A stretch of 64,000 bases of DNA from Urechis unicinctus. Its lineage: Eukaryota; Annelida; Polychaeta; Xenopneusta; Urechidae. The DNA lies in contig JAXDRA010000551.1 of NCBI GenBank assembly GCA_034190875.2, positions 62,001 to 126,000 of the forward strand, given 5' to 3'. The stretch's first letter is position 1; the number at the start of each line of letters is the position of its first letter. Shown here one piece after another: positions 10,053 to 52,100 of this stretch. A model generated the notes under the pieces. It was not told where the DNA came from, did no database searches, and worked only from the letters and a program-made list of their open reading frames with translations. The position numbers and the translations under genes are program-made.

Positions 10053-11820
10053 GCTTTATATAGAGTTCGCTACGCTGATATCATATTCCGCTGTATTTAG
10101 AGTTCACTTCATTGACATCTCAGTCAGCGGTATATAAAGTTCGATACACTAACATCATCGTCCGCTGTTTATAGATTTCGCTACTCTGACATCATCTTCC
10201 GCTGAATATAGAATTCGCTACATTGACATCACATTCAGCTGTATATGAAGTTCGCTAAGCCGACATCATCGTCCACTGTATATAGATATCACTCTATTGA
10301 CATCTCAGTCAGCTGTATATGAAGTTCGCTACGCTGACATCATCGTCCGCTGTATGTAGAGTTTACATTGACATCTCAGTCAGCAGTATAGAGAGTTCTC
10401 TAATCTGACATCTTCGTCCGCTGTATATAGAGTTCACTACATTGACATTTCAGTCATTTGTATATAGGGTTCGCTACACTGACATCATCGTCCGCTGTAT
10501 GTAGGGTTCACCACACTGACATCATCATGCGCTGTATATAGAGTTCACTACGCAGCATCTCTGTCAGCTGTATATAGAGTACACTACGTTGACATCATCG
10601 TCCGCTGTATATTGAGTTCGCTACACTAACATCATCGTACGCAGTACATAGAGTTCGCTACATTGACATCTCAGTCAGCTGTATATGAAGTTCGCCACGC
10701 TGACATCATCTTCCGCTGTATATAGAGTTTACATTGACATCTCAGTCAGCTGTATAGAGAGTTCGCTACACTAACATCATCGTTCGCAGTTTATAGAGTG
10801 CGCTACACAGACATCATAATCATATTTGTAAAGCCTGCTCAACACTGACATAAAAGTCTGCTGTATGAAGAATTAGGTACAATGACACCATAGTCAACTG
10901 TGTAAAAACTGCGCTACGCAGACCTCATAGTCAGTTGTTTGTAGATTTCGCTACGCTGATGTCATAGTCAGTTGTATGTAGATTTCGCTACACTGACATT
11001 ATAGCCGTCTATGCAAAAACTACTTTTCACTGACATGCAATTCAGCTATATAGAGTTCGCTACACTGACATCATCGTGCGCTGTTGATCGAGTTCCCTAC
11101 ACTGACATCATCGTCCGCTGTATATAGAGTACCCTACGTTGATATTTCAGTCAGCTGTATGTATAGTTCGCTACACTGACATCATCGTCCGCTTTATGTA
11201 GAGTTCACCACACTGACATCATCGTGTGCTGTATATAGAGTTTACTACGCAGACATCTCGGTCAGCTGTATAATGAGTACACTACGTTGACATCATCGTC
11301 CGCTGTATATAGAGTTCGCTACACTGACTTTATCGTGAGCTGTATAAAATGTTCACTACACCGATATCAGCGTCCGCTGTATATAGAGTTTTTCTACATT
11401 GACATCTCAGTCAGCTGTAAACCAAGTTCGATACACTAACATCATCGTCCGCTGCATATAGATTTCGCTACACTGACATCATCGTCTGGTGAATATAGAG
11501 TTCGCTACATTGACATCTCAGTCAGCTGTATATGAAGTTCGCTACGCCGACAGCATCGTCCCCTGTATAATGAGATCACTATGTTGATATCTCAGTCAGC
11601 TGTATATGAAGTTCTCTACGCTGACAACATAGTCAGCTGTACAGAGATTTTACTACACTGACATCTCAGTGAGCTATATAAAGAGTTCGCATCGCTTCGA
11701 TCATAGTCCGCGGTTTATAGATTTCGCTAAACTGACATAATCGACCGCTGTATATAGATTTCGCTACACTGACATCATCGTCTGCTGAATATAGAGTTCA
11801 CTACATTGACATCTCAGTCA
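10053..11820 (+). repeat. 1,767 bp 48-mer unit, copy 3
   Basis: A 1,768 bp copy with private changes GTTCTCTAATC near 10,395 and an extra T near 11,390 (GAGTTTTTCTAC). It is otherwise nearly identical to its neighbours. The M block starts at about 10,790. Confidence 0.95.
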
Positions 11821-13588
11821 GCTTTATATAGAGTTCGCTACGCTGATATCATATTCCGCTGTATTTAGAGTTCACTTCATTGACATCTCAGTCAGCGGTA
11901 TATAAAGTTCGATACACTAACATCATCGTCCGCTGTTTATAGATTTCGCTACTCTGACATCATCTTCCGCTGAATATAGAATTCGCTACATTGACATCAC
12001 ATTCAGCTGTATATGAAGTTCGCTAAACCGACATCATCGTCCACTGTATATAGATATCACTATATTGACATCTCAGTCAGCTGTATATGAAGTTCGCTAC
12101 GCTGACATCATCGTCCGCTGTATGTAGAGTTTACATTGACATCTCAGTCAGCAGTATAGAGAGTTCGCTAATCTGACATCTTCGTCCGCTGTATATAGAG
12201 TTCACTACATTGACATTTCAGTCATTTGTATATAGGGTTCGCTACACTGACATCATCGTCCGCTGTATGTAGGGTTCACCACACTGACATCATCATGCGC
12301 TGTATATAGAGTTCACTACGCAGCATCTCTGTCAGCTGTATATAGAGTACACTACGTTGACATCATCGTCCGCTGTATATTGAGTTCGCTACACTAACAT
12401 CATCGTACGCAGTACATAGAGTTCGCTACATTGACATCTCAGTCAGCTGTATATGAAGTTCGCCACGCTGACATCATCTTCCGCTGTATATAGAGTTTAC
12501 ATTGACATCTCAGTCAGCTGTATAGAGAGTTCGCTACACTAACATCATCGTTCGCAGTTTATAGAGTGCGCTACACAGACATCATAATCATATTTGTAAA
12601 GCCTGCTCAACACTGACATAAAAGTCTGCTGTATGAAGATTTAGGTACAATGACACCATAGTCAACTGTGTAAAAACTGCGCTACGCAGACCTCATAGTC
12701 AGTTGTTTGTAGATTTCGCTACGCTGATGTCATAGTCAGTTGTATGTAGATTTCGCTACACTGACATTATAGCCGTCTATGCAAAAAACTACTTTTCACT
12801 GACATGCAATTCAGCTATATAGAGTTCGCTACACTGACATCATCGTGCGCTGTTGATCGAGTTCCCTACACTGACATCATCGTCCGCTGTATATAGAGTA
12901 CCCTACGTTGATATTTCAGTCAGCTGTATGTATAGTTCGCTACACTGACATCATCGTCCGCTTTATGTAGAGTTCACCACACTGACATCATCGTGTGCTG
13001 TATATAGAGTTTACTACGCAGACATCTCGGTCAGCTGTATAATGAGTACACTACGTTGACATCATCGTCCGCTGTATATAGAGTTCGCTACACTGACTTT
13101 ATCGTGAGCTGTATAAAATGTTCACTACACCGATATCAGCGTCCGCTGTATATAGAGTTTTCTACATTGACATCTCAGTCAGCTGTAAACCAAGTTCGAT
13201 ACACTAACATCATCGTCCGCTGCATATAGATTTCGCTACACTGACATCATCGTCTGGTGAATATAGAGTTCGCTACATTGACATCTCAGTCAGCTGTATA
13301 TGAAGTTCGCTACGCCGACAGCATCGTCCCCTGTATAATGAGATCACTATGTTGATATCTCAGTCAGCTGTATATGAAGTTCTCTACGCTGACAACATAG
13401 TCAGCTGTACAGAGATTTTACTACACTGACATCTCAGTGAGCTATATAAAGAGTTCGCATCGCTTCGATCATAGTCCGCGGTTTATAGATTTCGCTAAAC
13501 TGACATAATCGACCGCTGTATATAGATTTCGCTACACTGACATCATCGTCTGCTGAATATAGAGTTCACTACATTGACATCTCAGTCA
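11821..13588 (+). repeat. 1,767 bp 48-mer unit, copy 4
   Basis: A 1,768 bp copy. It carries CTAAACCGAC near 12,024 (CTAAGCCGAC elsewhere), one extra A in the TGCAAAAAACTAC tract near 12,785, and GAAGATTTAGG near 12,636. The last is shared only with copy 5. Confidence 0.95.
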
Positions 13589-15358
13589 GCTTTATATAGA
13601 GTTCGCTCCGCTGATATCATATTCCGCTGTATTTAGAGTTCACTTCATTGACATCTCAGTCAGCGGTGTATAAAGTTCGATACACTAACATCATCGTCCG
13701 CTGTTTATAGATTTCGCTACTCTGACATCATCTTCCGCTGAATATAGAATTCGCTACATTGACATCACATTCAGCTGTATATGAAGTTCGCTAAGCCGAC
13801 ATCATCGTCCACTGTATATAGATATCACTCTATTGACATCTCAGTCAGCTGTATATGAAGTTCGCTACGCTGACATCATCGTCCGCTGTATGTAGAGTTT
13901 ACATTGACATCTCAGTCAGCAGTATAGAGAGTTCGCTAATCTGACATCTTCGTCCGCTGTATATAGAGTTCACTACATTGACATTTCAGTCATTTGTATA
14001 TAGGGTTCGCTACACTGACATCATCGTCCGCTGTATGTAGGGTTCACCACACTGACATCATCATGCGCTGTATATAGAGTTCACTACGCAGCATCTCTGT
14101 CAGCTGTATATAGAGTACACTACGTTGACATCATCGTCCGCTGTATATTGAGTTCGCTACACTAACATCATCGTACGCAGTACATAGAGTTCGCTACATT
14201 GACATCTCAGTCAGCTGTATATGAAGTTCGCCACGCTGACATCATCTTCCGCTGTATATAGAGTTTACATTGACATCTCAGTCAGCTGTATAGAGAGTTC
14301 GCTACACTAACATCATCGTTCGCAGTTTATAGAGTGCGCTACACAGACATCATAATCATATTTGTAAAGCCTGCTCAACACTGACATAAAAGTCTGCTGT
14401 ATGAAGATTTAGGTACAATGACACCATAGTCAACTGTGTAAAAACTGCGCTACGCAGACCTCATCATAGTCAGTTGTTTGTAGATTTCGCTACGCTGATG
14501 TCATAGTCAGTTGTATGTAGATTTCGCTACACTGACATTATAGCCGTCTATGCAAAAACTACTTTTCACTGACATGCAATTCAGCTATATAGAGTTCGCT
14601 ACACTGACATCATCGTGCGCTGTTGATCGAGTTCCCTACACTGACATCATCGTCCGCTGTATATAGAGTACCCTACGTTGATATTTCAGTCAGCTGTATG
14701 TATAGTTCGCTACACTGACATCATCGTCCGCTTTATGTAGAGTTCACCACACTGACATCATCGTGTGCTGTATATAGAGTTTACTACGCAGACATCTCGG
14801 TCAGCTGTATAATGAGTACACTACGTTGACATCATCGTCCGCTGTATATAGAGTTCGCTACACTGACTTTATCGTGAGCTGTATAAAATGTTCACTACAC
14901 CGATATCAGCGTCCGCTGTATATAGAGTTTTCTACATTGACATCTCAGTCAGCTGTAAACCAAGTTCGATACACTAACATCATCGTCCGCTGCATATAGA
15001 TTTCGCTACACTGACATCATCGTCTGGTGAATATAGAGTTCGCTACATTGACATCTCAGTCAGCTGTATATGAAGTTCGCTACGCCGACAGCATCGTCCC
15101 CTGTATAATGAGATCACTATGTTGATATCTCAGTCAGCTGTATATGAAGTTCTCTACGCTGACAACATAGTCAGCTGTACAGAGATTTTACTACACTGAC
15201 ATCTCAGTGAGCTATATAAAGAGTTCGCATCGCTTCGATCATAGTCCGCGGTTTATAGATTTCGCTAAACTGACATAATCGACCGCTGTATATAGATTTC
15301 GCTACACTGACATCATCGTCTGCTGAATATAGAGTTCACTACATTGACATCTCAGTCA
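13589..15358 (+). repeat. 1,767 bp 48-mer unit, copy 5
   Basis: A 1,770 bp copy with a 3 bp insertion near 14,462 (CCTCATCATAG). It shares GAAGATTTAGG near 14,402 with copy 4 and CAGCGGTGTATAAAG near 13,661 with the following partial copy. The two shared variants overlap in a staggered way, which records the order of duplication. Confidence 0.95.
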
Positions 15359-16310
15359 GCTTTATATAGAGTTCGCTACGCTGATATCATATTCCGCTGT
15401 ATTTAGAGTTCACTTCATTGACATCTCAGTCAGCGGTGTATAAAGTTCGATACACTAACATCATCGTCCGCTGTTTATAGATTTCGCTACTCTGACATCA
15501 TCTTCCGCTGAATATAGAATTCGCTACATTGACATCACATTCAGCTGTATATGAAGTTCGCTAAGCCGACATCATCGTCCACTGTATATAGATATCACTC
15601 TATTGACATCTCAGTCAGCTGTATATGAAGTTCGCTACGCTGACATCATCGTCCGCTGTATGTAGAGTTTACATTGACATCTCAGTAAGCAGTATAGAGA
15701 GTTCGCTAATCTGACATCTTCGTCCGCTGTATATAGAGTTCACTACATTGACATTTCAGTCATTTGTATATAGGGTTCGCTACACTGACATCATCGTCCG
15801 CTGTATGTAGGGTTCACCACACTGACATCATCATGCGCTGTATATAGAGTTCACTACGCAGCATCTCTCTGTCAGCTGTATATAGAGTACACTACGTTGA
15901 CATCATCGTCCGCTGTATATTGAGTTCGCTACACTAACATCATCGTACGCAGTACATAGAGTTCGCTACATTGACATCTCAGTCAGCTGTATATGAAGTT
16001 CGCCACGCTGACATCATCTTCCGCTGTATATAGAGTTTACATTGACATCTCAGTCAGCTGTATAGAGAGTTCGCTACACTAACATCATCGTTCGCAGTTT
16101 ATAGAGTGCGCTACACAGACATCATAATCATATTTGTAAAGCCTGCTCAACACTGATATAAAAGTCTGCTGTATGAAGAATTAGGTACAATGACACCATA
16201 GTCAACTGTGTAAAAACTGCGCTACGCAGACCTCATAGTCAGTTGTTTGTAGATTTCGCTACGCTGATGTCATAGTCAGTTGTATGTAGATTTCGCTACA
16301 CTGACATTAT
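15359..16310 (+). repeat. 1,767 bp 48-mer unit, partial copy 6
   Basis: The first half of a sixth copy. It has AGTAAGC near 15,686 and a CT dinucleotide gain near 15,866. It ends inside the M block: from 16,311 the text reads GTCGTCAATGCAAAAACTAC where earlier copies read GCCGTCTATGCAAAAACTAC, and the following monomers belong to a different unit. Confidence 0.92.
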
Positions 16311-18817
16311 AGTCGTCAATGCAAAAACTACTTTTCATTGACATGATATTCAGCTGTATATAGAGTTCGCTACACTGACATCATCGTCCGCTGTACATAG
16401 AGTTCGCTACACTACCATCATCGTCCGCTGTATATAGAGTTCGCTACACTGATATCATCGTCCGCTGTATATAGAATTCGCTACATTGACATCTCAGTCC
16501 GCTGTATATAGAGTTCGTGAAGCTAACATTATTGTCCGCTGTATATAGAGTTTTCTACATTAACTTCTCAGTCGGCTGGATATGAATTTCGCTACACTGA
16601 CATCATCGTGCGCTGTATATAGAGTTTACTACACTGACAACATCGTGCGCTGTATATAGAGTTCACTACATGGACATCTCAGTCAGCTGTGTTTGAAGTT
16701 CGCAATGCTAACATCATCGTCCGCTCTATATAGAGATCGCTACACTAACATCATCGTCCGCGGTACATAGAGTTCGCTACATTGACATCTCAGTCAGCTG
16801 TATATGAAGTTCGCTACGCCGACATCATCGTCCCCTGTATATAGTGATCACTATATTGACATCTCAGTCAGCTGTATATGAAGTTCGCTACGCTGACATT
16901 ATCGTCCGCTGGATATAGAGTTTACATTGACATCTCAGTCAGCTTTGAAGAGAGTTCGCTAATATGACATCATCGTCCGCTGTATATAGAGTTCACTACA
17001 TTGACATTTCAGTCAGTTGTATATAGAGTTCGCTACACTGACATCATCGTCCGCTATATGTAGAGTTCACCCCACTGACATCATCATGCGCTGTATATAG
17101 AGTTTACTATGCAGCATCTCAGTCAGCTGTATATAGAGTACACTACGTTGACATCATCGTCCGCTGTACATAGAGTTCGCTACACTGACATCATCGTCCA
17201 CTGTATATAGAGTTCACTTCATTGACATCTCAGGCAGCGGTATATAAAGTTCGATACACTAACATCATCGTCCGCTGTTTATCGATTTCGCTACTCTAAC
17301 ATCATCTTCCGCTGAATATAGAATTCGCTACATTGACATCTCAGTCAGCTGTATATGAAGTTCGCTAAGCCGACATCATCGTCCCCTGTATATAGATATC
17401 ACTATATTGACATCTCTGTCAGCTGTATAGAGAGTTCGCTGCACTAACATCATCGTTCGCAGTTTATAGAGTGCGCTACACAGACATCATAATCATATTT
17501 GTAAAGCCTGCTCAACACTGACATAAAAGTCTGCTGTATGAAGAATTAGGTACAATGACATCATAGTCAACTGTGTAAAAACTGCGCTACGCAGACCTCA
17601 TAGTCAGTTGTTTGTAGATTTCGCTACGCTGATGTCATAGTCAGTTGTATGTAGATTTCGCTACACTGACATTATAGCCGTCTATGCAAAAACTACTTTT
17701 CACTGACATGCTATTCAGCTGTATATAGAGTTCGCTACACTGACATCATCGTGCGCTGTTGATCGAGTTCCCTACACTGACATCATCGTCCGCTGTATGT
17801 AGAGTACCCTACGTTGATATTTCAGTCAGCTGTATGTATAGTTCGCTACACTGACATCATCGTCCGCTTTATGTAGAGTTCACCACACTGACATCATCGT
17901 GTGCTGTATATAGAGTTTACTTCGCAGACATCTCGGTCAGCTGTATAATGAGTACACTACGTTGACATCATCGTCCGCTGTATATAGAGTTCGCTACACT
18001 GACATTATCGTGAGCTGTATAAAATGTTCACTACACTGACATCAGCGTCCGCTGTATATAGAATTCACTACATTGACATCTCAGTCAGCTGTATATGAAG
18101 CTCGCTACGCTGACATCATCGTCCGCTGTATATAGAGTTTACATTGACATCTCAGTCAGCTGTATAGAGAGTTCGCTAATCTGACATCATCATGCGCTGT
18201 ATATAGAGTTCACTACGCAGCATCTCAGTCAGCTGTATATAGAGTACACTACGTTGACATCATCGTCCGCTGTATATAGAGTTCACTTCATTGACATCTC
18301 AGTCAGCTGTATATAAAGTTCGATACACTAACATCATCGTCCGCTGTTTATAGATTTCGCTACACTGACATCATCTCCCGCTGAATATTGAATTCTCTAC
18401 ATTGACATCTCAGTCAGCTGTATATGAAGTTCGCTACGTCGACATCATCGTCCCCTGTATATAGAGATCACTATATTGACATCTCTGTCAGCCGTATATG
18501 AAGTTCGCTACACTGACATCATCGTCCGCCTTATATTGAGTTTACATTGACATCTCAGTCAGCTGTATAGAGAGTTCGCTAATCTGACATCATCTTCCGC
18601 AGTAAATAGAGTTCACTACACAGACATCATAATCATATATGTAAAGACTGCTCAACACACTGACATAAAAGTCTGCTATATGAAGAATAAGGTACAATGC
18701 CATCATAGTCAACTGTGTAAAAACTCCGCTACGCAGACCTCATAGTCAGTTGTATGTAGATTTCGCTACGCTGACGTCATAGTCAGTTGTATGTAGATTT
18801 CGCTACACTGACATTAT
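16311..18817 (+). repeat. Mosaic segment between the 48-mer run and the next units
   Basis: Satellite monomers with a flavour i M block at about 17,463 and a flavour ii block at about 18,603. The first 290 bp or so (16,311-16,600) is repeated from 18,818 at an offset of 2,507, including the unusual CACTACCATCATCG monomer and the TTCTCAGTCGGCTGG monomer. The interval 16,311-18,817 is therefore one roughly 2.5 kb unit bounded by its own repeat. An 18 bp palindrome lies near 16,840. Confidence 0.82.
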
Positions 18818-20826
18818 AGTCGTCAATGCAAAAACTACTTTTCATTGACATGCTATTCAGCTGTATATAGAGTTCGCTACACTGACATCATCGTCCGCTG
18901 TACATAGAGTTCGCTACACTACCATCATCGTCCGCTGTATATAGAGTTCGCTACACTGATATCATCGTCCGCTGTATATAGAATTCGCAACATTGACATC
19001 TCAGTCCGCTGTATATAGAGTTCGCTAAGCTAACATTATTGTCCGCTGTATATAGAGTTTTCTACATTAACTTCTCAGTCGGCTGGATATGAATTTCGCT
19101 ACGCTGGCCTCATCGTCCGCTGTATATAGAGTTCACTACATTGACATCTCAGTCAGCTGTATATGACGTTCGCTACGCTGACAACATAGTCAGCTGTATA
19201 TGGAGTTCGCATCGCTTACATCATAGTCCGCGGTTTGTAGATTTCGCTACACTGACATAATCGTCCGCTGTATATTTAGTTCGCTAGACTGACATCATCG
19301 TCAGCCGTATATAGAGTTCGCTACAATGACATCTCAGTCAGCTGTATATAGAGTTCACTACATTGACATCTCAGTCAGTTGTATATATAGTTCGCTTCGC
19401 TACACTAATCATCATCGTCCGCAGTATATAGAGTGCGCTACTTCATATGTGTAAAGACTGCTCAACACTGACTTAAAAGTCTGCTGTATGAAGAATTAGG
19501 TACAATGACATCATAGTCAACTGTGTAAAAACTGCGCTACGCAGACGTCATAGTCAGTCGTATGCAGATTTCGCTTCGCTGACAACATAGTCAGTTGTAT
19601 GAAGATTTCGCTACACTGACATTATAGTCGTCTATGCAAAAACTACGTTTCACTGACCTGCTAATCAGATGTATATAGAGTTCGCAACACTGACACCATC
19701 GTCCGCTGTATATAGAATACCCTACGTTGATATTTCAGCCAGCTGTATATATAGTTCGGTAGTACACTGACATCATAGTCCGCTGTATATAGAGTACCCT
19801 ACGTTGATATTTCAGTCAGCTGTATATATAGTTCGCTACACTGCCATCATCGTCCGCTTTATGTAGACTTCACCACACTGACATCATCGTGTGCTCTATA
19901 TAGAGTTCACTACATTGACATCTCAGTCAGCTGTATATAGAGTTCTCTACATTGACATCTCAGTCAGCTATATATAGAGTTCGCTACGCAGATATCATAT
20001 TCCGCTGTGTTTAGAGTTCACTACATTGACATCTCAGTCAGCTGTATACAAAGTTCGCTACAGTAACATCATCGTCCTCTGTTGATCGAGTTCCCTACAC
20101 TTACATCATCGTCCGCTGTATATAGAGTACCCTGCGTTGATATTTCAGTCAGCTGTATGTATAGTTCGCTACACTGACATCATCGTCCGCTTTATGTAGA
20201 GTTCACCACACTGACATCATCGTGTGCTGTATATAGAGTTCACTATGCAGACATCTCGGTCAGCTGTATAAAGAGTACACTACGTTGACATCAACGTCCG
20301 CTGTATATAGAGTTCGCATCGCTTTGATCATAGTCCGCGGTTTATAGATTGCGCTAAACTGACATAATCGTCCGCTGTATATAGATTTCGCTACACTGAC
20401 ATCATCGTCTGCTGAATATAGAGTTCACTACATTGACATCTCAGTCAGTTGTGTATAGAGTTCGCTACACTAACATCATCGTCCGCAGTATATAGATTTC
20501 GCTACACTGACATCATCGTCTGGTGAATAAAGAGTTCGCTACATTGACATCTCAGTCAGCTGTATATGAAGTTCGCTACGCCGACATCATCGTCCCCTGT
20601 ATAATGAGATCACTATGTTGATATCTCAGTCAGCTGTATATGAAGTTCTCTACGCTGACAACATAGTCAGCTGTACAGAGATTTTACTACACTGACATCT
20701 CAGTGAGCTATATAAAGAGTTCGCATCGCTTTGATCATAGTCCGCGGTTTACAGATTGCGCTAAACTGACATAATCGTCCGCTGTATATAGATTTCGCTA
20801 CACTGACATCATCGTCTGCTGAATAT
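18818..20826 (+). repeat. Mosaic segment with flavour iii M block
   Basis: Opens with the repeat of 16,311-16,600, then runs into a flavour iii M block at about 19,425. A small irregular expansion sits at 19,391-19,415 (TTCGCTTCGCTACACTAATC). The stretch from about 19,180 is repeated from about 20,838 at offsets of 1,658 to 1,642. The segment ends at an abnormal junction near 20,827. Confidence 0.8.
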
Positions 20827-35340: not shown

Positions 35341-38244
35341 CGCTACGCTGACAACATAGTCAGCTGTATATGGAGTTCGCATCGCTTACATCATAGTCCG
35401 CGGTTTATAGATTTCGCTACACTGACATAATCGTCCGCTGTATATTGAGTTCGCTAGACTGACATCATCGTCAGCCGTATATAGAGTTCGCTACAATGAC
35501 AATCTCAGTCAGCTGTATATAGAGTTCACTACATTGACATCTCAGTCAGCTGTATATAGAGTTCGCTACACTTACATCATCGTCCGCAGTATATAGAGTG
35601 CGCTACTTCATAAGTGTGAAGACTGCTCAACACTGACTTAAAAGTCTGCTGTATGAAGAAATAGATACAATGACATCATAGTCAACTGTGTAAAAACTGA
35701 GCTACGCAGACCTCATAGTCAGTTGTATGCAGATTTCGCTACGCTGACAACATAGTCAGTTGTATGAAGATTTCGCTACACTGACATTATAGTCGTCTAT
35801 GCAAAAACTACGTTCCACTGACATGCTATTCAGCTGTATATAGAGTACGCTACACTAACATCATCGTGCGCTGTATATAGAGTTCACCACACTGACATCA
35901 TCGTGTGCTGTATATAGAGTTCAATACATTGACATCTCAGTCAGCTTTAAACAATGTTCGATACACTAACATCATCGTCCGCTGTTTATATATTTCGCTA
36001 CACTGACATCATCGTCTGCTGAATATAGAGTTCGCTACATTGACATCTCAGTCAGCTGTATATGAAGTTCGCTACGCCGACATCATCGTCCCCTGTATAA
36101 TGAGATCACTATGTTGACATCTCAGTCAGCTGTATATGAAGTTCTCTACGCTGACAACATAGTCAGCTGTACAGAGATTTTACTACACTGACATCTCAGT
36201 CAGCTATACATAGAGTTCGCATCGCTTCGATCATAGTCCGCGGTTTATAGATTTCTCTACACTGACATGATCTTCCGCTGTATATAAATTTCGCTAGACT
36301 GACATCATCGTCAGCCGTATATAGAGTTCGCTACACTGACATCATCGTCCGCAGTATATAGAGTTCACTACATTGACATCTCAGTCAGCTGTGTATAGAG
36401 TTCGCTACACTAACATCATCGTCCGCAGTATATAGAGTGCGCTACACAGACATAATCATATGTATAAAGACTGCTCACACTAACATAAAAGTCTGCTGTA
36501 TGAAGAATAAGGTACAGCGACATGATAGTCAACTGTGTAAAAACTGCGCTACGCAGACCTCATAGTCAGTTTTATGCAGATTTCGCTACGCTGACATCAT
36601 AGTCAGTTGTATGAAGATTTCGCTCCACTGACATTATAGTCGTCAAAACTACGTTCCATTGACTTGCTATTCAGATGTATATAGAGTACGCTACACTGAC
36701 ATCATCGTGCGCTGTATATAGAGTTCACCACACTGACATCATATTCCGCTGTATTTAGAGTTCATTACATGGACATCGCAGTCAGCTGTGTTTGAAGTTC
36801 GCTATGCTAACATCATCGTCCGCTCTATATAGAGTTCGCTACACTGACATCATCGTCCGCTCTATATATAGATCACCACATTGACATCTCAGTCAGCTGT
36901 ATATGAAGTTCGCAACGCTGACATCATTTTCCGCTGTATATAAAGTTCGCTACAATAACATCATCGTCCGCAGTACATAGAGTTCGCTACATTGACATCT
37001 CAGTCAGCTGTATATGAAGTTCGCTACGCCGACATCATCGTCCCCTGTATATAGTGATCACTATATTGACAGCTCAGTCAGCTATATATGAAGTTTGCTA
37101 CGCTGACATTATCGTCCGCTGTATATAGAGTTTACATTGACATCTCAGTCAGCTGTGTAGAGAGTTCCCTAATATGACAAATCAGTCAGCTGTTTTTAAG
37201 TTCGTTACACTAACATCATCGTCCGCTTTTGATCGAGTTCGCTACACCGACATCATCGTCCGCTTTATGTAGAGTTCACCACACTGACATCATCGTGTGG
37301 CTTTTATATAGAGTTCACTATATTGACATCTCAGTCAGCAGTATATGAAGTTAGCTACGCTGACATCATCGTGCGCTGTATATAGAGTTTGCTACACTGA
37401 CAACATCGTGCGCTGTATATAGAGTTCACTACATTGACATCTCAGTCAGCTGTATACAAAGTTCGCTACACTAACATCATCGTCCGCTGTTGATCGAGTT
37501 CCCTACACTGACATCATCGTCCGCTGTATATAGAGTACCCTATGTTGATATTTCAGTCAGCTGTATGTATAGTTCGCTACACTGACATCATCGTCCGCTT
37601 TATGTAGAGTTCACCACACGGACATCATCGTGTGCTGTATATAGAGTTCACTACGCAGACATCTCGGTCAGCTGTTTAATGAGTACACTACGTTGACATC
37701 ATCGTCCGCTGTATATAGAGTTCGCTACACTGACATCATCGTGCGCTGTTTATAGATTTCGCTACTCTGACATCATCTTCCGCTGAATATAGAATTCGCT
37801 ACATTGACATCTCAGTCAGCTGTATAAGAAGTTCGCTAAGCCGACCCCTCATCGTCCCCTGTACATAGATATCACTATATTGACATCTCAGTCAGCTGTA
37901 TATGAAGTTCGCTACGCTGACATCATCGTCCGCTGTATGTAGAGTTTACATTGACATCTCAGTCAGCTGTATAGAGAGTTCGCTAATCTGACATCATCGT
38001 CCGCTGTATATAGAGTTCACTACATTGACATTTCAGTCATTTGTATATAGGGTTCGCTACACTGACATCATCGTCCGCTATATGTAGAGTTCACCACACT
38101 GACATCATCATGCGCTGTATATAGAGTTTACTACGCAGCATCTCAGTCAGCTGTATATAGAGTACACTACGTTGACATCATCGTCCGCTGTATATTGAGT
38201 TCGCTACACTAACATCAACGTCCGCAGTACATAGAGTTCGCTAG
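35341..38244 (+). repeat. Patchwork of three segmental copies
   Basis: 35,341-36,141 copies 33,397-34,199 (flavour iii M block at 35,595). 36,030-36,910 copies 32,516-33,396 (flavour iv at 36,434). 36,910-38,050 copies 34,200-35,338. The ancestral order was therefore reshuffled by at least two unequal exchanges. Private indels include GTGTGGCTTTTATATAG near 37,298 and CCGACCCCTCATCG near 37,842. Confidence 0.85.
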
Positions 38245-40315: not shown

Positions 40316-42460
40316 CTCTGTCAGCTGTATATGAAGTTCGCCACGCTGACATCATCTTCCGCTGTATATAGAGTTTACATTGACATCTCAGTCAGCTGTA
40401 TAGAGAGTTCGCTACACTAACATCATCGTTCGCAGTTTATAGAGTGCGCTACACAGACATCATAATCATATTTGTAAAGCCTGCTCAACACTGACATAAA
40501 AGTCTGCTGTATGAAGAATTAGGTACAATGACATCATAGTCAACTGTGTAAAAATGCGCTACGCAGACCTCATAGTCAGTTGTTTGTAGATTTCGCTACG
40601 CTGATGTCATTGTCAGTTGTATGTAGATTTCGCTACACTGACATTATTGCCGTCTATGCAAAGACTACTTTTCACTGACATGCTATTCAGCTGTATATAG
40701 AGTTCGCTACACTGACATCATCGTGCGCTGTATATAGAGTTCACTACACTTACATCATCGTGCGCTGTATTTAGAGTTCACTACATTGACATCTCAGTCA
40801 GCTGTATACAAAGTTCGCTACACTAACATCATCGTCCGCTGTTGATCGAGTTCCCTACACTGACATCATCGTCCGCTGTATATAGAGTACCCTACGTTGA
40901 TATTTCAGTCAGCTGTATGTATAGTTCGCTACACTGACATCATCGTCCGCTTTATGTAGAGTTCACCACACTGACATCATCGTGTGCTGCATATAGAGTT
41001 CACTACGCAGACATCTCGGTCAGCTGTATAATGAGTACACTACGTTGACATCATCGTCCGCTGTACATAGAGTTCGCTACACTGACATTATCGTGCGCTG
41101 TATAAAATGTTCACTACACCGACATCAGCGTCCGCTGTATATAGAGTTTTCTACATTGACATCTCAGTCAGCTGTAAACAAAGTTCGATACACTAACATC
41201 ATCGTCCGCTGCATATAGATTTCGCTACACTGACATCATCGTCTGCTGAATATTGAAATCGCTACATTGACATCTCAGTCAGCTGTATATGAAGTTCGCT
41301 ACGCCGACATCATCGTCCCCTGTATTATGAGATCACTATGTTGATATCTCAGTCAGCTGTATATGAAGTTCTCTACGCTGACAACATAGTCAGCTGTACA
41401 GAGATTTTACTACACTGACATCTCAGTGAGCTATATAAAGAGTACGCATCGCTTCGATCATAGTCCGCGGTTTATAGATTTCGCTACACTGATATAATCG
41501 TCCGCTGTATATAGATTTCGCTACACTGACATCATCGTCTGCTGAATATAGAGTTCACTACATTGACATCTCAGTCAGCTGTATATAGAGTTCGCTACGC
41601 TGATATCATATTCCGCTGTACTTAGAGTTCACTACATGGACATCTCAGTCAGCTGTGTTTGAAGTACGCTATGCTAACATCATCGTCCGCTCTATATAGA
41701 GTTCGCTACACTGACATCATCGTGCGCTGTATATAGAGTTCACTACATTGACATCTCAGTCAGCTGTATATGAAGTTCGCAACGCCGACATCATTTTCCG
41801 ATGTATATAGAGTTCGCTACACTAACATCATCGTCTGCAGTACATAGAGTTCGCTACATTGACATCTCAGTCAGCTGTATATGAAGTTCGCTACGCCGAC
41901 ATCATCGTCCCCTGTATATAGTGATCACTATATTGACATCTCAGTCAGCTGTATATGAAGTTCGCTACACTAACATCATCGTCCGCTGTATATAGAGTTC
42001 ATTACATTGACATTTCAGTCAGTTGAATATAGAGTTCGCTACACTGACATCATCGTCCGCTATATGTAGAGTTCACCACACTGACATCATCATGCGCTGT
42101 ATATAGAGTTTATTACGCAGCATCTCAGTCAGCTGTATATAGAGTACACTACGTTGACATCCTCGTCCGCTGTACATAGAGTTCGCTACACTGACATCAT
42201 CGTGCGCTTTATATAATGTTCACTACACTGACATCATCGTCCGCTGTATATAGAGTTCACTTCATTGACACCTCAGTCAGCTGTATATAAAGTTCGATAC
42301 ACTAACATCATCGTCAGCTGTTTATTGATTTCGCTACACTGACATCATCTCCCGCTGAATATTGAATTCGCTACATTGACATCTCAGTCAGCTGTATATG
42401 AAGTTCGCTACGTCGACATCATCGTCCCCTGTATATAGAGATCACTATATTGACATCTCT
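40316..42460 (+). repeat. About 2.14 kb unit, copy 2
   Basis: Tandem partner of 38,245-40,315, with the crossover inside GTCAGCTGTATATGAAGTTCG near 40,320-40,343. Its M block (40,441) carries a private TATTGCCG and TGCAAAGACTAC near 40,645-40,665. The TGCAAAGACT change is also found at 48,28x, linking this copy to the right edge of the irregular zone. Confidence 0.88.
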
Positions 42461-43079
42461 GTCAGCCGTATATGAAGTTCGCTACACTGACATCATCGTC
42501 CGCCTTTTATAGAGTTTACATTGACATCTCAGTGAGCTGTATAGAGAGTTCGCTAATCTGACATCATCGTCCGCTGTATATAGAGTTCACTACACAGACA
42601 TCATAATCATATATGTAAAGACTGCTCAACGCTGACATAAAAGTCTGCTGTATGAAGAATAAGGTACAATGCCATCATAGTCAACTGTGTAAAAACTCCG
42701 CTACGCATACCTCATAGTCAGTTGTATGTAGATTTCGCTACGCTGACGTCATAGTCAGTTGTATGTAGATTTCGCTACACTGACATTATAGTCGTCAATG
42801 CAAAAACTACTTTTCACTGACATGCTATTCAGCTGTATATAGAGTTCGCTACACTGACATCATCGTCCGCTGTACATAGAGTTCGCTACACTACATCATC
42901 GTCCGCTGTATATAGAGTTCGCTACACTGATATCATAGTCCGCTGTATATAGAGTTCGCTACATTGACATCTCAGTCCCGCTGTATATAGAGTTCGCTAT
43001 GCTAACATTATCGTCCGCTGTATATAGAGTTTTCTACATTAACATCTCAGTCGGCTGGATATGAATTTCGCTACGCTGA
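42461..43079 (+). repeat. Flavour ii segment leading into the irregular zone
   Basis: Contains the flavour ii M block at 42,582 with TGACGTCA at 42,744-42,751. It matches 50,078-50,696 at an offset of about 7,617. Small indels begin here: CACTACATCATCG near 42,890 (one C lost) and CAGTCCCGCTG near 42,975 (one C gained). Confidence 0.88.
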
Positions 43080-46000
43080 CCTCATCGTCCGCTGTAATAT
43101 AGAGTTCACTACATTGACATCTCAGTCAGCTGTATATATGAGTTCGCTACGCTGACAACATAGTCAGCTGTATATGGAGTTCGCATCGCTGACATCATAG
43201 TCCGCGCTGTTTATAGATTTCGCTACACTGACATAATCGTCCGCTTTATATAGAGTTCGCTAGACTGACATGACATCAATGTCAGCTGCTGTATATAAAG
43301 TTCGCTATACACTGACATCATCGTCCGCTGTATATAGAGTTCGCTACATTGACATCATCGTCAGCTGTATATAGAGTTCGCTACATTGACATCTCAGTCA
43401 GCTGTATATAAGTTCGCTACACTGACATCATAGTCCGCTGTATATAGAGTTCGCTACGCTGACATCATATTAGTCAGTTGTATATGAAGATTTCGCTACT
43501 ACGCTGACATCATGCAAAAGTCGTCCCCTGTGTATAGAGTTTTTACTACACTGACATCATCGTGCGCTGTATAAGAGAGCTACGCTTGACATCATAGTCG
43601 CTGTATATAGAGAGTTCGCTACATTGACATCATCGTCAGCTGTATATAGAGTTCGCTACACTGACATCATCGTCCGCGTATATATAGAGTTCAACCTACA
43701 CTGACATCTCAGTCAGCTGTATATAGAGTTCGACTACACTGACATCATCGTCAGCTGTATATAGAGTTCGCTACACTGACATCATCGTCGCTGTATATAG
43801 AGTTCGCTACATTGACATCTCAGTCAGCTGTATATGAAGTTCGCTACGCTGACATCATCGTCCGCTGTATATATGAGTTCGCTACACTGACACATCAGTC
43901 AGTCAGCTATATATAGAGTTCGCTACGCTGACATCTCAGTCAGCTGTATATAGAGTTCGCTACGCTGACATCATCGTGTCCTGTGTATAGAGATCACGCA
44001 TTGACATCATCAGTCAGCTGTATATAGAGTTCGCTACACTGACATCATCGTCCGCTGTATATAGAGTTCACTACCTTGACATCTCAGTCAGTTGTATATA
44101 GAGTTCGCTACACTGACATCATCGTCCGCTATATAGAGTTCACTACACTGACATCATCGTGCGCTGTATATAGAGTTCAACTACGCTGACATCTCAGTCA
44201 GCTGTATATAGAGTACATACGTTGACATCATCGTCCGCTGTATATAGAGTTCGCTACACTGACATCATCGTCGCTGTATATAAGAGTTCACTACACTGAC
44301 ATCATCGTCCGCTGTATATAGAGTTCACTACACTGACATCAGTCTATCAGCTGTATATAGAGTTCGCTACACTGACATCATCGTCGCTGTATATAGAGTT
44401 CGCTACACTGACATCATATTCCGCTGTATATGAGTTCGCTACATTGACATCTCAGTCAGCTTGTATATAGAGTTCGCTACGCTGACATCATCGTCCGCTG
44501 TATATATAGAGTTCGCTACATTGACATCTCAGTCAGCTGTATATGAAGTTCGCACTACACTGACATCATCGTCCGCTGTATATAGAGTTCACTACATTGA
44601 CATCATCAGTCAGCTGTATATAGAGTTCGCTACACTGACATCATCGTTCGCAGTTATAGAGTTCGCTACACAGACATCATCGTCAGCTGTATATGTAAAT
44701 CCTGCTCAACACTGACATCAAAGTCGCTGTATGAAGAGTTCGGTACACATGACATCATCAGTCAACTGTGTAAAAAGTTCGCTACGCTGACATCATCGTA
44801 CAGTCAGCTGTATGTAGATTTCGCTACACTGACATCATCGTCAGCTGTATGTAGAGTTCGCTACACTGACATCATTCCGTCTATATATAGAGTTCGCTAC
44901 ACTGACATCTAGTCAGCTGTATATAGAGTTCGCTACACTGACATCATCGTCCGCTGTATATAGAGTTCGCTACACTGACATCATCGTGCGCTGTATTAGA
45001 GTTCACTACATTGACATCTCAGTCAGCTGTATATAAAGTTCGCTACGCTGACATCATCGTCCGCTGTTATATAGAGTTCCCTACACTGACATCATCGTCG
45101 CGCTGTATATAGAGTTCCCTACGTTGACATTTCAGTCAGCTGTATACAAAGTTCGCTACACTGACATCATCGTCCGCTTTATGTAGAGTTCACCACACTG
45201 ACATCATCGTGTGCTGTATATAGAGTTCACTACGCAGACATCTCGGTCAGCTGTATATAGAGTACACTACGTTGACATCATCGTCCGCTGTAATAGAGTT
45301 CGCTACACTGACATCATCGTGCGCTGTATATAGTTCGCTACACTGACATCATCGTCCGCTGTATATAGAGTTTCTACATTGACATCTCAGTCAGCTGTAT
45401 ATAAAGTTCGCTACACTAACATCATCGTCCGCAGTATATAGAGTTCGCTACACTGACATCATCGTCCGCTGTATATAGAGTTCGCTACATTGACATCTCA
45501 GTCAGCTGTATATGAAGTTCGCTACGCTGACATCATCGTCCCCTGTATATAGAGATTCACTACATTGACATCTCAGTCAGCTGTATATGAAGTTCGCTAC
45601 GCTGACATCATCGTCCGCTGTATATAGAGTTTACTACACTGACATCTCAGTGAGCTGTATATAGAGTTCGCTACTGCTGATCATCATCGTCCGCTGTATA
45701 TAGAGTTCACTACATTGACATCATCGTCCGCTGTATATAGAGTTCGCTACACTGACATCATCGTCCGCTGTATATAGAGTTCACTACATTGACATCTCAG
45801 TCAGCTGTATATAGAGTTCGCTACGCTGACATTATAGTCCGCCGTAAATAGGGTTCACTACATTGGCATCTTAGTCAGCTGTATATGAGAGTTCGCTACA
45901 CTGACATCATCGTCCGCTGTATATAGAGTTCGCTACACTGACATCATCGTCCGCTGTATATAGAGTTCGCTACACACTGACATCATCAGTCAGCTGTATA

Positions 46001-49000
46001 TAGAGTTCGCTACACTGACATCATTCGTCGTCGCTGTATATAGAGTTCGCTACACTGACATCATCGTCCGCTGTACATAGAGTTCGCTACACTGACATCT
46101 CAGTCAGCTGTATATAGAGTTCGCTACACTGACATCATAGTCAGCTGTATATAGAGTCGCTATTGACATCATCGTCAGCTGTATATGAGTTCGCTACACT
46201 GACATCATCGTCCGCTTGTATATAGAGTTCACTACATTGACATTTCGTCAGCTGTAATAGAGTTCGCTACACTGACATCATCGTCAGCTGTATATGTAGA
46301 GTTCACTACACTGACATCATCGTGCGCTGTATATAGAGTTCACTACACTGACATCATCGTCCGCTGTATATAGAGTTCACTACATTGACATCATCAGTCA
46401 GCTGTATATAGAGTTCGCTACACTGACATCATCGTCCGCTGTATATAAGAGTTCACTACACTGACATCATCGTCCGCTGTATATAGAGTTCACTACATTG
46501 ACATTTCAGTCAGCTGTATATAGAGTTCGATACACTGACATCATCGTCCGCTGTACATAGAGTTCGCTACACTGACATCATCGTCGCTGTTATATAGAGT
46601 TCACTACATTGACATCTCAGTCAGCTGTATATAGTTCGCTACATTGACATCATCGTCCGCTGTATATAGAGTTCGCTACATTGACATCATCGTCAGCTGT
46701 ATAGAGAGTTCGCTACACTGACATCATCGTCCGCTATAATATAGAGTTCGCTACATTGACATCTCAGTCAGCTGTATATAGAGTTCGCTACACTGACATC
46801 ATCGTCCGCTGTATATAGAGTTCGCTACACAGACATCATAATCATATGTGTAAAGAAGTTCTCTACACTGACATAAAAGTCTGCTGTATGAAGAGTTTCG
46901 CTACAATGACATCATAGTGTCCAACTGTATAAAAAGTGCGCTACGCAGACATCATAGTCAGTTGTATATAGATTTCGCTACGCTGACATCATAGTCAGTT
47001 GTATGTAGATTTCGCTACACTGACATTATTGTCGCTATATAAAAAAGTACTTTTCACTGACATGCTAGTCAGCTGTATATAGAGTTCGCTACACTGACAT
47101 CATCGTCGTCGCTGTATATAGAGTTCGCTACATTTGACATCATCGTGCGCTGTATATAGAGTTCACTACATTGACATCATCGTCCGCTGTATATAGAGTT
47201 CGCTACACGCTGACATCATCAGTCCGCTGTATATAGAGTTCGCTACACTGACATCATCGTCCGCTGTATATAGAGTTCGCTACATTGACATCTCAGTCAG
47301 CTGTATATGAATTCGCTACACTGACATCATCGTCCGCTGTATATAGAGTTCACTACATTGACATCTCAGTCAGCTGTATATGAGTTCGCTACGCTGACAT
47401 CATCGTCAGCTGTATATAGAGTTCGCACTACGCTTGACATCATCGTCCGTTGTATATAGAGTTCGCTACACTGACATCATCGTCCGCTGTATATTGAGTC
47501 GCTACACTGACATCATCGTCCGCTGTATATAGAGTTCGCTACATTGACATCTCAGTCAGCTGTATATAGAGTTCACTACATTGACATCATCGTCCGCTGT
47601 ATATAGAGTTCGCTACACTGACATCATCGTCGTTCGCTGTATATAGAGTATTATTGACATTCATCATTTGTATATAAGACTGCTCAACACTATCATCGTC
47701 CGCTGTATATAGAGTTCACTACATTGACATCATAGTCAGCTGTATATAAAGTTGCTACACTGACATCATAGTCAGCTTGTATGTAGATTTCGCTACACTG
47801 ACATCATAGTCCAGCTGTATATAGATTTCGCTACACTGACATCATAGTCAGCTGTATATGAAGTTCGCTACACTGACATCATCGTCAGCTGTATATAGAG
47901 TTCACTACATTGACATCATCGTGCAGCTGTATATGAAGTTCGCTACACTGACATCATCGTCCGCTGTATATAGAGTCACTACATTGACATCTCAGTCAGC
48001 TGTATATAGAGAGTTCGCTACACTAACATCATCGTCCGCTGTATATAGAGTTCGCTACACTGACATCATAATCATGTATTTAGTAAAGCCTGCACAGACA
48101 TCATCAGTCAGCTGTATAAAAGTCTGCTGTCCCCCTGTATATAGAGGTACAATGACATCATAGTCGCTGTGTAAAAGTTCGCTACGCAGACCTCATAGTC
48201 AGTTGTTTGTAGATTTCGCTACGCTGACATCATCGTCGTTGTATGTAGATTTCGCTACACTGACATCATGCCGTCCGCTGTATGCAAAGACTTCTTTTCA
48301 CTGACATGCTATTCAGCACGTGTATATAGAGTTCGATACACTGACATCATCGTGCGCTGTGTATATAGAGTTCACCCCACTTACATCATCGTGCGCTGTA
48401 TATAGAGTTCACTACATTGACATCATCAGTCAGCTGTATATAGAGTTCGCTACACTGACATCATCGTCCGCTGTTTATAGAGAGTTCCCTACACTGACAT
48501 CATCGTCCGCTGTATATAGAGTTCCCTACGTTGACATTCAGTCAGCTGTATGTAGAGTTCACTACACTGACATCATCGTCGCGCTGTATATAAGAGTTCA
48601 TCGTGTGCTACACTGACATCAGACATCTCGGTCAGCTGTATAATGAGTTACACTACGTTGACATCATCGTCCGCTGTACATAGAGTTCGCTACACTGACA
48701 TTATCGTGCGCTGTATAAAATGTTTCACTACACCGACATCATCGTCGCTGTGTATATAGAGTTTTCTACATTGACATCTCAGTCAGCTGTTAAACAAAGT
48801 CGCTACACTACACATCATCGTCCGCTGCATATAGATGTTCGCTACACTGACATCATCGTCTGAATATATAGAGTTCGCTACATTGACATCTCAGTCAGCT
48901 GTATATGAAGTTCGCTACGCCGACATCATCGTCCCTGTATATTGAGATCACTATGTTGATATCTCAGTCAGCTGTATATGAAGTTCTCTACGCTGACAAC

Positions 49001-49130
49001 ATAGTCAGCTGTACAGAGATTTTACTACACTGACATCTCAGGAGCTATATAAAGAGTACGCATCGCTTCGATCATAGTCCGCGGTTATAGATTTCGCTAC
49101 ACTGATATAATCGTCCGCCTGTATATAGAT
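43080..49130 (+). repeat. Irregular, indel-rich, consensus-like satellite zone
   Basis: Monomers here are mostly the plain A or B consensus, and many have 1-3 bp gains or losses: GTAATATAG (43,095), GACATGACATCAATG (43,268), TCATTCGTCGTCGCTG (46,021), GTCCCCCTG (48,130). The variant linkers that label positions elsewhere are largely gone. Blurred M blocks survive at about 44,653, 46,812 and 48,042, and a compressed relic lies at about 43,478-43,530 (GAAGATTTCGCTACTACGC, then CATGCAAAAGTCG). Flanks on both sides match the normal units in order, and indels taper off by 49,130. It is either a decayed old segment or a poorly resolved assembly stretch; the sequence alone cannot decide. Confidence 0.85.
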
Positions 49131-52100
49131 TTCGCTACACTGACATCATCGTCTGCTGAATATAGAGTTCACTACATTGACATCTCAGTCAGCTGTATAT
49201 AGAGTTCGCTACGCTGATATCATATTCCGCTGTACTTAGAGTTCACTACATGGACATCTCAGTCAGCTGTGTTTGAAGTACGCTATGCTAACATCATCGT
49301 CCGCTCTATATAGAGTTCGCTACACTGACATCATCGTGCGCTGTATATAGAGTTCACTACATTGACATCTCAGTCAGCTGTATATGAAGTTCGCAACGCC
49401 GACATCATTTTCCGATGTATATAGAGTTCGCTACACTAACATCATCGTCTGCAGTACATAGAGTTCGCTACATTGACATCTCAGTCAGCTGTATATGAAG
49501 TTCGCTACGCCGACATCATCGTCCCCTGTATATAGTGATCACTATATTGACATCTCAGTCAGCTGTATATGAAGTTCGCTACACTAACATCATCGTCCGC
49601 TGTATATAGAGTTCATTACATTGACATTTCAGTCAGTTGAATATAGAGTTCGCTACACTGACATCATCGTCCGCTATATGTAGAGTTCACCACACTGACA
49701 TCATCATGCGCTGTATATAGAGTTTATTACGCAGCATCTCAGTCAGCTGTATATATAGAGTACACTACGTTGACATCCTCGTCCGCTGTACATAGAGTTC
49801 GCTACACTGACATCATCGTGCGCTTTATATAATGTTCACTACACTGACATCATCGTCCGCTGTATATAGAGTTCACTTCATTGACACCTCAGTCAGCTGT
49901 ATATAAAGTTCGATACACTAACATCATCGTCAGCTGTTTATTGATTTCGCTACACTGACATCATCTCCCGCTGAATATTGAATTCGCTACATTGACATCT
50001 CAGTCAGCTGTATATGAAGTTCGCTACGTCGACATCATCGTCCCCCTGTATATAGAGATCACTATATTGACATCTCTGTCAGCCGTATATGAAGTTCGCT
50101 ACACTGACATCATCGTCCGCCTTTTATAGAGTTTACATTGACATCTCAGTGAGCTGTATAGAGAGTTCGCTAATCTGACATCATCGTCCGCTGTATATAG
50201 AGTTCACTACACAGACATCATAATCATATATGTAAAGACTGCTCAACGCTGACATAAAAGTCTGCTGTATGAAGAATAAGGTACAATGCCATCATAGTCA
50301 ACTGTGTAAAAACTCCGCTACGCATACCTCATAGTCAGTTGTATGTAGATTTCGCTACGCTGACGTCATAGTTAGTTGTATGTAGATTTCGCTACACTGA
50401 CATTATAGTCGTCAATGCAAAAACTACTTTTCACTGACATGCTATTCAGCTGTATATAGAGTTCGCTACACTGACATCATCGTCCGCTGTACATAGAGTT
50501 CGCTACACTACCATCACCGTCCGCTGTATATAGAGTTCGCTACACTGATATCATAGTCCGCTGTATATAGAGTTCGCTACATTGACATCTCAGTCCGCTG
50601 TATATAGAGTTCGCTATGCTAACATTATTGTCCGCTGTATATAGAGTTTTCTACATTAACATCTCAGTCGGCTGGATATGAATTTCGCTACGCTGACCTC
50701 ATCGTCCGCTGTATATAGAGTTCACTACATTGACATCTCAGTCAGCTGTATATGACGTTCGCTACGCTGACAACATAGTCAGCTGTATATGGAGTTCGCA
50801 TCGCTTACATCATAGTCCGCGGTTTATAGATTTCGCTACACTGACATAATCGTCCGCTTTATATTGAGTTCGCTAGACTGACATCATCGTCAGCCGTATA
50901 TAGAGTTCGCTACAATGACAATCTCAGTCAGCTGTATATAGAGTTCACTACATTGACATCTCAGTCAGCTGTATATAGAGTTCGCTACACTTACATCATC
51001 GTCCGCAGTATATAGAGTGCGCTACTTCATAAGTGTGAAGACTGCTCAACACTGACTTAAAAGTCTGCTGTATGAAGAAATAGATACAATGACATCATAG
51101 TCAACTGTGTAAAAACTGAGCTACGCAGACCTCATAGTCAGTTGTATGCAGATTTCGCTACGCTGACAACATAGTCAGTTGTATGAAGATTTCGCTACAC
51201 TGACATTATAGTCGTCTATGCAAAAACTACGTTCCACTGACATGCTATTCAGCTGTATATAGAGTACGCTACACTAACATCATCGTGCGCTGTATATAGA
51301 GTTCACCACACTGACATCATCGTGTGCTGTATATAGAGTTCAATACATTGACATCTCAGTCAGCTTTAAACAAAGTTCGATACACTAACATCATCGTCCG
51401 CTGTTTATATATTTCGCTACACTGACATCATCGTCTGCTGAATATAGAGTTCGCTACATTGACATCTCAGTCAGCTGTATATGAAGTTCGCTACGCCGAC
51501 ATCATCGTCCCTGTATAATGAGATCACTATGTTGACATCTCAGTCAGCTGTATATGAAGTTCTCTACGCTGACAACATAGTCAGCTGTACAGAGATTTTA
51601 CTACACTGACGTCTCAGTCAGCTATACATAGAGTTCGCATCGCTTCGATCATAGTCCGCAGTTTATAGATTTCTCTACACTGACATGATCGTCCGCTGTA
51701 TATAAAGTTCGCTAGACTGACATCATCGTCAGCCGTATATAGAGTTCGCTACACTGACATCATCGTCCGCGCAGTATATAGAGTTCACTACATTGACATC
51801 TCAGTCAGCTGTGTATAGAGTTCTCTACACTAACATCATCGTCCGCAGTATATAGAGTGCGCTACACAGACATATTCATATGTATAAAGACTGCTCACAC
51901 TGACATAAAAGTCTGCTGTATGAAGAATAAGGTACAGCGACATCATAGTCAACTGTGTAAAAACTGCGCTACGCAGACCTCATAGTCAGTTTTATGCAGA
52001 TTTCGCTACGCTGACATCATAGTCAGTTGTATGAAGATTTCGCTCCACTGACATTATAGTCGTCTATGCAAAACTACGTTCCATTGACATGCTATTCAGA

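Follow-up and report, generated by a model that had tools for sequence, protein, structure and literature searches.

A consensus-like, indel-rich patch in a 37-bp satellite array of Urechis unicinctus is probably an assembly fault

The patch and its setting in the array

We analysed a consensus-like, indel-rich patch in a 37-bp satellite array of Urechis unicinctus and conclude that it is probably a fault of the assembly rather than biology. The window, that is, the whole stretch of DNA under analysis, comprises 64,000 bases (bases 62,001-126,000 of contig C361, JAXDRA010000551.1, in an assembly of 1.19 Gb and 926 contigs), and the contig was examined over its entire 156,728 bases; coordinates below are those of the window unless a contig is named. 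The array, with its higher-order copies, fills the window (1-64,000, plus strand), where Tandem Repeats Finder reports a single array of 1,734.9 copies, and the satellite occupies the contig as far as about 138 kb. The patch that it hosts extends from 43,096 to 49,118 (no strand assigned) and is read here as a merged or under-corrected assembly consensus.

Private monomer variants return in larger units across the window, at offsets that include 1,767, 3,787 and 5,958 bases, and array 31-mers mostly recur several times. Diverged edges are typical of higher-order repeat satellite arrays. The present array resembles such systems both in the multi-monomer units of its clean part (offsets of, for example, 1.77, 3.79 and 5.96 kb) and in its diverged edge at contig 126-138 kb; passages of PMC7545148 describe human arrays as flanked by divergent monomeric tracts. 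The patch differs from this picture in that it lies nearer to the consensus than the edge does and, unlike the edge, has many private indels. Among the best literature matches for '37-bp satellite' or 'higher-order repeat', the term '37-bp satellite' was not found, and a 29-base satellite word had no exact match in viral_contigs or genome_contigs. A DNA search of the genome itself with 74 bases returned no hit either, a negative that carries no weight for simple repeats.

The edges of the patch are sharp. Compared with clean copies 7.6 kb away, changes are dense from 43,096 to 49,118, and rightward of 49,118 the next change is at 49,750; the bounds of 43,080-49,130 given in a preliminary description of this DNA were correct to within about 16 bases. 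The clean left flank (41,008-43,095, plus strand) and the clean right flank (49,119-50,883, plus strand) are collinear with each other at a distance of about 7.61 kb, with 41,900-43,270 pairing with 49,514-50,883 and 48,620-50,000 with 41,008-42,384, which agrees with the earlier claim that order markers at both ends align with their neighbours. A sequence change near 48,285 had also been linked to the copy at 40.66 kb, and rightly so: TGCAAAGACT, a private variant kept in the patch at 48,283-48,292 (plus strand), occurs exactly twice in the contig, its only partner being at 40,657. The local template is still visible through the patch, which retains the private base at 416 of 683 template sites. 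By 500-base bins, retention is lowest at 16/44 (bin 47,080) and highest at 67/75 (bin 48,580), and the left-end bin, with 24/36 private bases kept, is unremarkable.

M blocks within the patch are blurred, as had been noted. Three lie on the plus strand, with each end taken as the start plus the block length: 44,690-44,912 (188/231 to the block at 42,610), 46,845-47,067 (199/229) and 48,090-48,312 (179/212, incomplete, block columns 21-223). Weaker M-like matches occur at 45,882 (168/231) and 47,671 (149/186). Most other M copies in the window have 198-223 matches over 219-227 positions, and weak copies exist outside the patch too, at 20,337 (160/222) and 23,667 (148/181). The M 'relic' proposed at 43,478-43,530 was not confirmed: the contig has GCAAAAGTCG only once, at 43,514, but the nearest M-like match, at 43,290 (141/188, score 140), is no better than the matches at the array edge (131-147). 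Elsewhere, M blocks form a regular run with a spacing of 1,767-1,772 bases at 7,289-16,131, and no M-like match scoring at least 130 was found from window position 63,792 to 74,659.

Loss of private variants and gain of indels

Two measures were used. In the first, the window was aligned cyclically to the 37-mer and changes were counted per kb; in the second, each stretch was compared with a mosaic pieced together from the best-matching clean copies in the remaining sequence, the reference for the patch being the contig up to 140 kb. Against the 37-mer, kilobases 43-48 carry 59-102 substitutions and 17-50 inserted bases per kb, compared with 116-185 and 5-19 elsewhere in the window. Per kb, the exact patch carries 74.4 substitutions, with 21.9 bases inserted and 12.6 deleted, and the left core 148.4, 1.7 and 8.5 (these rates, like those for the edge and a minor patch below, omit one common alignment shift), which means that substitutions to the consensus are halved and inserted bases are up about 13-fold. 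In 600-base windows, the 55 within the patch average 42.1 substitutions and 14.9 indel runs, and the 1,177 in the background average 87.7 and 4.5. Single background windows, next to a minor patch described below, have up to 21 indel runs, so indel runs alone do not mark the patch.

Aligned to its best clean templates, the patch shows 373 substitutions over 6,051 bases, along with 157 inserted bases in 114 runs and 44 deleted bases in 42 runs. Ordinary array sequence, represented by 24 of 32 2-kb blocks (16-24 kb and 42-50 kb were left out, and the window outside the patch served as reference), totals 267 substitutions across 48 kb (5.6 per kb) and 76 indel bases (1.6 per kb). Of the 31-mers in each patch kilobase, 42-69% occur once in the contig, a share that is mostly 0-20% in the clean array, and 4,020 of 5,992 patch 31-mers are absent from the remaining contig array. 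Both the loss of private variants and the frequency of small indels that the preliminary description had reported are therefore borne out by these counts.

The substitutions also have a direction. At template-private sites the patch carries the consensus base in 249 of 683 cases and another base in 18, and template-consensus sites are altered at 103 of 5,162. The resulting ratio of changes toward and away from the consensus (249 to 103) is 2.42, compared with 0.74 for the edge, 0.52 for the stretches 18-20 and 22-24 kb taken together and 0.78 for 12 kb of clean array, so that the suggested drift toward the consensus is now a measured one. Copy-specific variants are lost toward the repeat consensus, and in this the patch resembles overcorrection, or consensus collapse, in long-read assembly, in which, according to the published passages available, copy-private variants in tandem repeats are replaced by the majority base.

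The array also contains older-looking sequence. The region 16,500-24,000 matches the array only as many short pieces, with substitutions and few indels, and the edge, at contig 126-136 kb, has diverged by about 4.6% substitutions from the copies that match it best. How such sequence decays bears on whether the patch could be a real, old relic that escaped homogenisation and gathered mutations, as its position between collinear clean copies and its retention of some private order markers would allow. Over 10 kb, the edge departs from its best copies by 455 substitutions but by only 10 bases inserted and 16 deleted; over the 8 kb of window 16-24 kb, the counts are 211 substitutions and 32 indel bases (reference, the window outside the patch). 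These figures indicate that the array decays mainly by substitution. The patch, with 201 indel bases beside 373 substitutions in 6.05 kb, does not show this substitution-led divergence away from the consensus, and random decay leads away from the consensus, whereas the patch goes toward it. A degraded relic is disfavoured and, in our estimate, highly improbable.

Some indels of the patch yield words in which two monomer alleles appear fused. The alleles GTCCGCTG and GTCAGCTG would give GTCGCTG if disputed bases were dropped, and CATCATCGTC and CATCTCAGTC would give CATCATCAGTC if such bases were kept twice. GTCGCTG occurs 10 times in the patch and TATATGAGTTC five times, neither being found in the clean array, and CATCATCAGTCAG occurs six times in the patch and nowhere in the remaining window; words absent from the clean array, two-allele fusions among them, are what overcorrection would leave. 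Allele-union words, defined as a common supersequence of two frequent monomer alleles that is absent from the clean array, were found at 40 sites in the patch, compared with 24.6 for an equal number of random indels (standard deviation, sd, 4.2; maximum 38; 0 of 300 runs reach 40). The diverged edge contains 9 union and 13 intersection (common-subsequence) words in 10 kb. With 9-base flanks, a split-allele account explains 65 of 69 insertions (null 56.5, sd 2.8, maximum 64), and with 11-base flanks it explains 56 of 58 (null 44.2, sd 3.0, maximum 51); this test dropped 45 and 56 insertions, respectively, whose flank is not in the clean array, and was given less weight than the union-word test. 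Tandem duplicates of a neighbour account for 24 of the 114 insertion runs, a count without a null comparison.

Similar patches elsewhere in the assembly

The genome contains 647 occurrences of the fused word CATCATCAGTCAGCTGTATAT, 204 of a second fused word and 17 of a third, on large and short contigs alike. Among the matches listed, the places of the first two words are clustered. The third word has 12 places on contigs up to C468, and for 10 of these a listed place of the first two words is no more than 5 kb away. Five other loci (39 kb), all chosen by fused words, each contain kilobases with 57-97 substitutions and raised indels; recurrence in other repeat arrays of the assembly is expected of overcorrection and is seen here in loci selected in this way. 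One of them, C5 at 53.398-53.412 Mb, runs clean, patch, clean, patch, clean, and two are short contigs of 27,324 and 13,753 bases. A 32-kb cluster of the fused word CATCATCAGTCAGCTGTATAT lies at 7.138-7.170 Mb of C9, the longest dense one among the matches listed, and 6 kb of it are in part patch-like.

On contig C361 itself, a second, smaller patch lies at contig 35,580-36,550 (window about -26,420 to -25,450), with 66.0 substitutions, 14.4 inserted and 22.7 deleted bases per kb. This smaller patch holds one CATCATCAGTCAG. A possible third patch, at contig positions of about 7,600-8,600 (window -54,400 to -53,400), comprises 600-base windows with 49-64 substitutions and 11-19 indel runs. A filter that allows no more than 60 substitutions and requires 8 or more indel runs per 600 bases selects 14 of the 1,177 background windows, which overlap: eight are at -26.6 to -25.3 kb, three at -54.4 to -53.6 kb, and the remaining ones are single windows from -56.3, -18.6 and -15.3 kb.

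Similar patches on several large contigs would also be found if a real, dispersed, consensus-like satellite subfamily interrupted many arrays. Exact stretches common to patches of different loci reach up to 151 bases, longer than those shared with the clean C361 array; TTGACATCATCAGTCAG recurs, with 4 occurrences in the patch and 19 in the other loci; and 599 of the 4,020 novel patch 31-mers are found in the other loci, compared with 180 of 6,693 for 11 of 13 clean blocks (the blocks at contig 112000 and 118000 were excluded, since each was part of its own reference). Such sharing is expected if all patches converge on one consensus and also if the subfamily is real. The insertions provide a further comparison: of 114 insertion contexts in the patch, the clean contig array contains 11 and the other loci 20, compared with 2,356 and 2,234 of 2,661 event-free patch words, and one fused word recurs. 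The sequence of the patch is thus generic and its insertions mostly private, which is odd in an array where 31-mers recur several times. Against a subfamily stand the 90 distinct insertion contexts that are missing from both the clean contig array and the other loci, and two words with indels, 38 and 40 bases long (picked as single in the contig), each of which occurs once in the 1.19 Gb genome, compared with 84 occurrences of a clean M-block word of 40 bases. The patch, moreover, lies within otherwise collinear copies. We consider a subfamily very unlikely, although it is less well excluded than a decayed relic.

Merging of reads, its alternatives and the sequence beyond the array

An assembly artefact of some class is, on this evidence, very likely. 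We put the probability at about 0.7 that it arose by merging, in which reads in the wrong register produced a low-quality consensus of different monomers or copies. The preliminary description had slightly preferred merging to an old degraded segment, and the balance has moved from slight to strong because the drift ratio is 2.42, indels are few in the old stretches, the diverged edge among them, and similar patches recur in the assembly. Too few accurate, placeable reads may have been available at the patch, and read correction, gap filling or polishing would then have voted with reads from other monomers or satellite copies. Contested bases would have become the majority base, been dropped or been kept twice, with ordinary sequencing noise added on top. 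The published passages that we draw on describe such processes: read correction can draw on reads of other repeats (PMC12667832), overcorrection can be induced by satellite arrays (PMC12016036) and polishing may place reads on the wrong repeat copies (PMC7545148). Those parts of the published descriptions of overcorrection mention neither this satellite nor fused words. The patch differs from overcorrection in its high residual indel rate, which suggests low depth or noisy reads as well.

Simulations gave a similar direction of effect. In toy voting, voters from the wrong register brought substitutions down to 94-131 per kb and increased indels in all six settings, and voters from the correct register gave 138-156 per kb; simulated random decay of clean copies raised substitutions to 179 per kb. 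The voting was done along a backbone, replacing a first version based on MAFFT, and agrees in direction only. In the MAFFT simulation, mixed reads yielded 178.6, 146.2 and 140.6 substitutions per kb at depths of 3, 5 and 8, and same-locus reads 166.9, 161.0 and 159.2.

Several results weigh against merging, beginning with the sharing between patches described above. Simulated substitutions never fell under 94 per kb, so the value of the patch was not reached, and the first, MAFFT-based simulation showed a weak effect. Deletions outnumbered insertions in runs resembling Oxford Nanopore Technologies (ONT) reads and in those resembling continuous long reads (CLR) at depth 15; in the patch the balance is the reverse. 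Intersection words are only modestly in excess, at 31 sites compared with 22.8 (sd 3.6, maximum 36). Window 18,001-20,000 is indel-heavy for its substitutions, with 15 substitutions and 12 indel bases when the whole contig is the reference. Finally, the old edge is also nearer to the consensus than the core is (111.8 substitutions per kb), so that closeness to the consensus is not decisive by itself.

The excess of inserted over deleted bases (157 and 44) also fits an account in which one noisy long read, or a noisy gap fill, bridged a coverage gap and was then polished with multi-mapping short reads. The patch would still be an artefact, but the merging would have occurred at polishing, pulling variants to the consensus and leaving many indels behind. 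The mostly private insertions fit this account, as do the short contigs of 13.8 and 27.3 kb with the same pattern, and the last full bin on the right keeps 67/75 private variants, compared with 16/44 to 59/80 in earlier bins, as if anchored by the flank. There is no clear anchoring at the left end (24/36 kept), allele-union words exceed those from random indels, and a single noisy read does not by itself drift toward the consensus (145.6 substitutions per kb when simulated), so that a second step must be assumed. We regard this account as possible but rather doubtful. Far less probable still is that the patches are real, with repair or copying by frequent template switching between monomers rewriting kilobases toward the consensus and leaving allele-fusion indels in many arrays of one genome; if true, this would represent an unusual mode of satellite turnover.

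If the patch is a merged consensus, its length and copy number are also unreliable. In work on the copy number, mutation rate or higher-order structure of the array, such a patch would be mistaken for a relic or for a conversion tract. Its signature of fewer consensus substitutions, more private indels and allele-fusion words is easy to compute and can flag such patches without reads.

Beyond the array, contig 138.4-156.7 kb lacks the 37-bp satellite and contains a TCTCTC run and 34 TA repeats. A search of contig 136-156.7 kb with Rfam returned nothing at the gathering score. Two pairs of similar open reading frames, together with many repeated 31-mers, lie at contig 143-152 kb and point to a local duplication.

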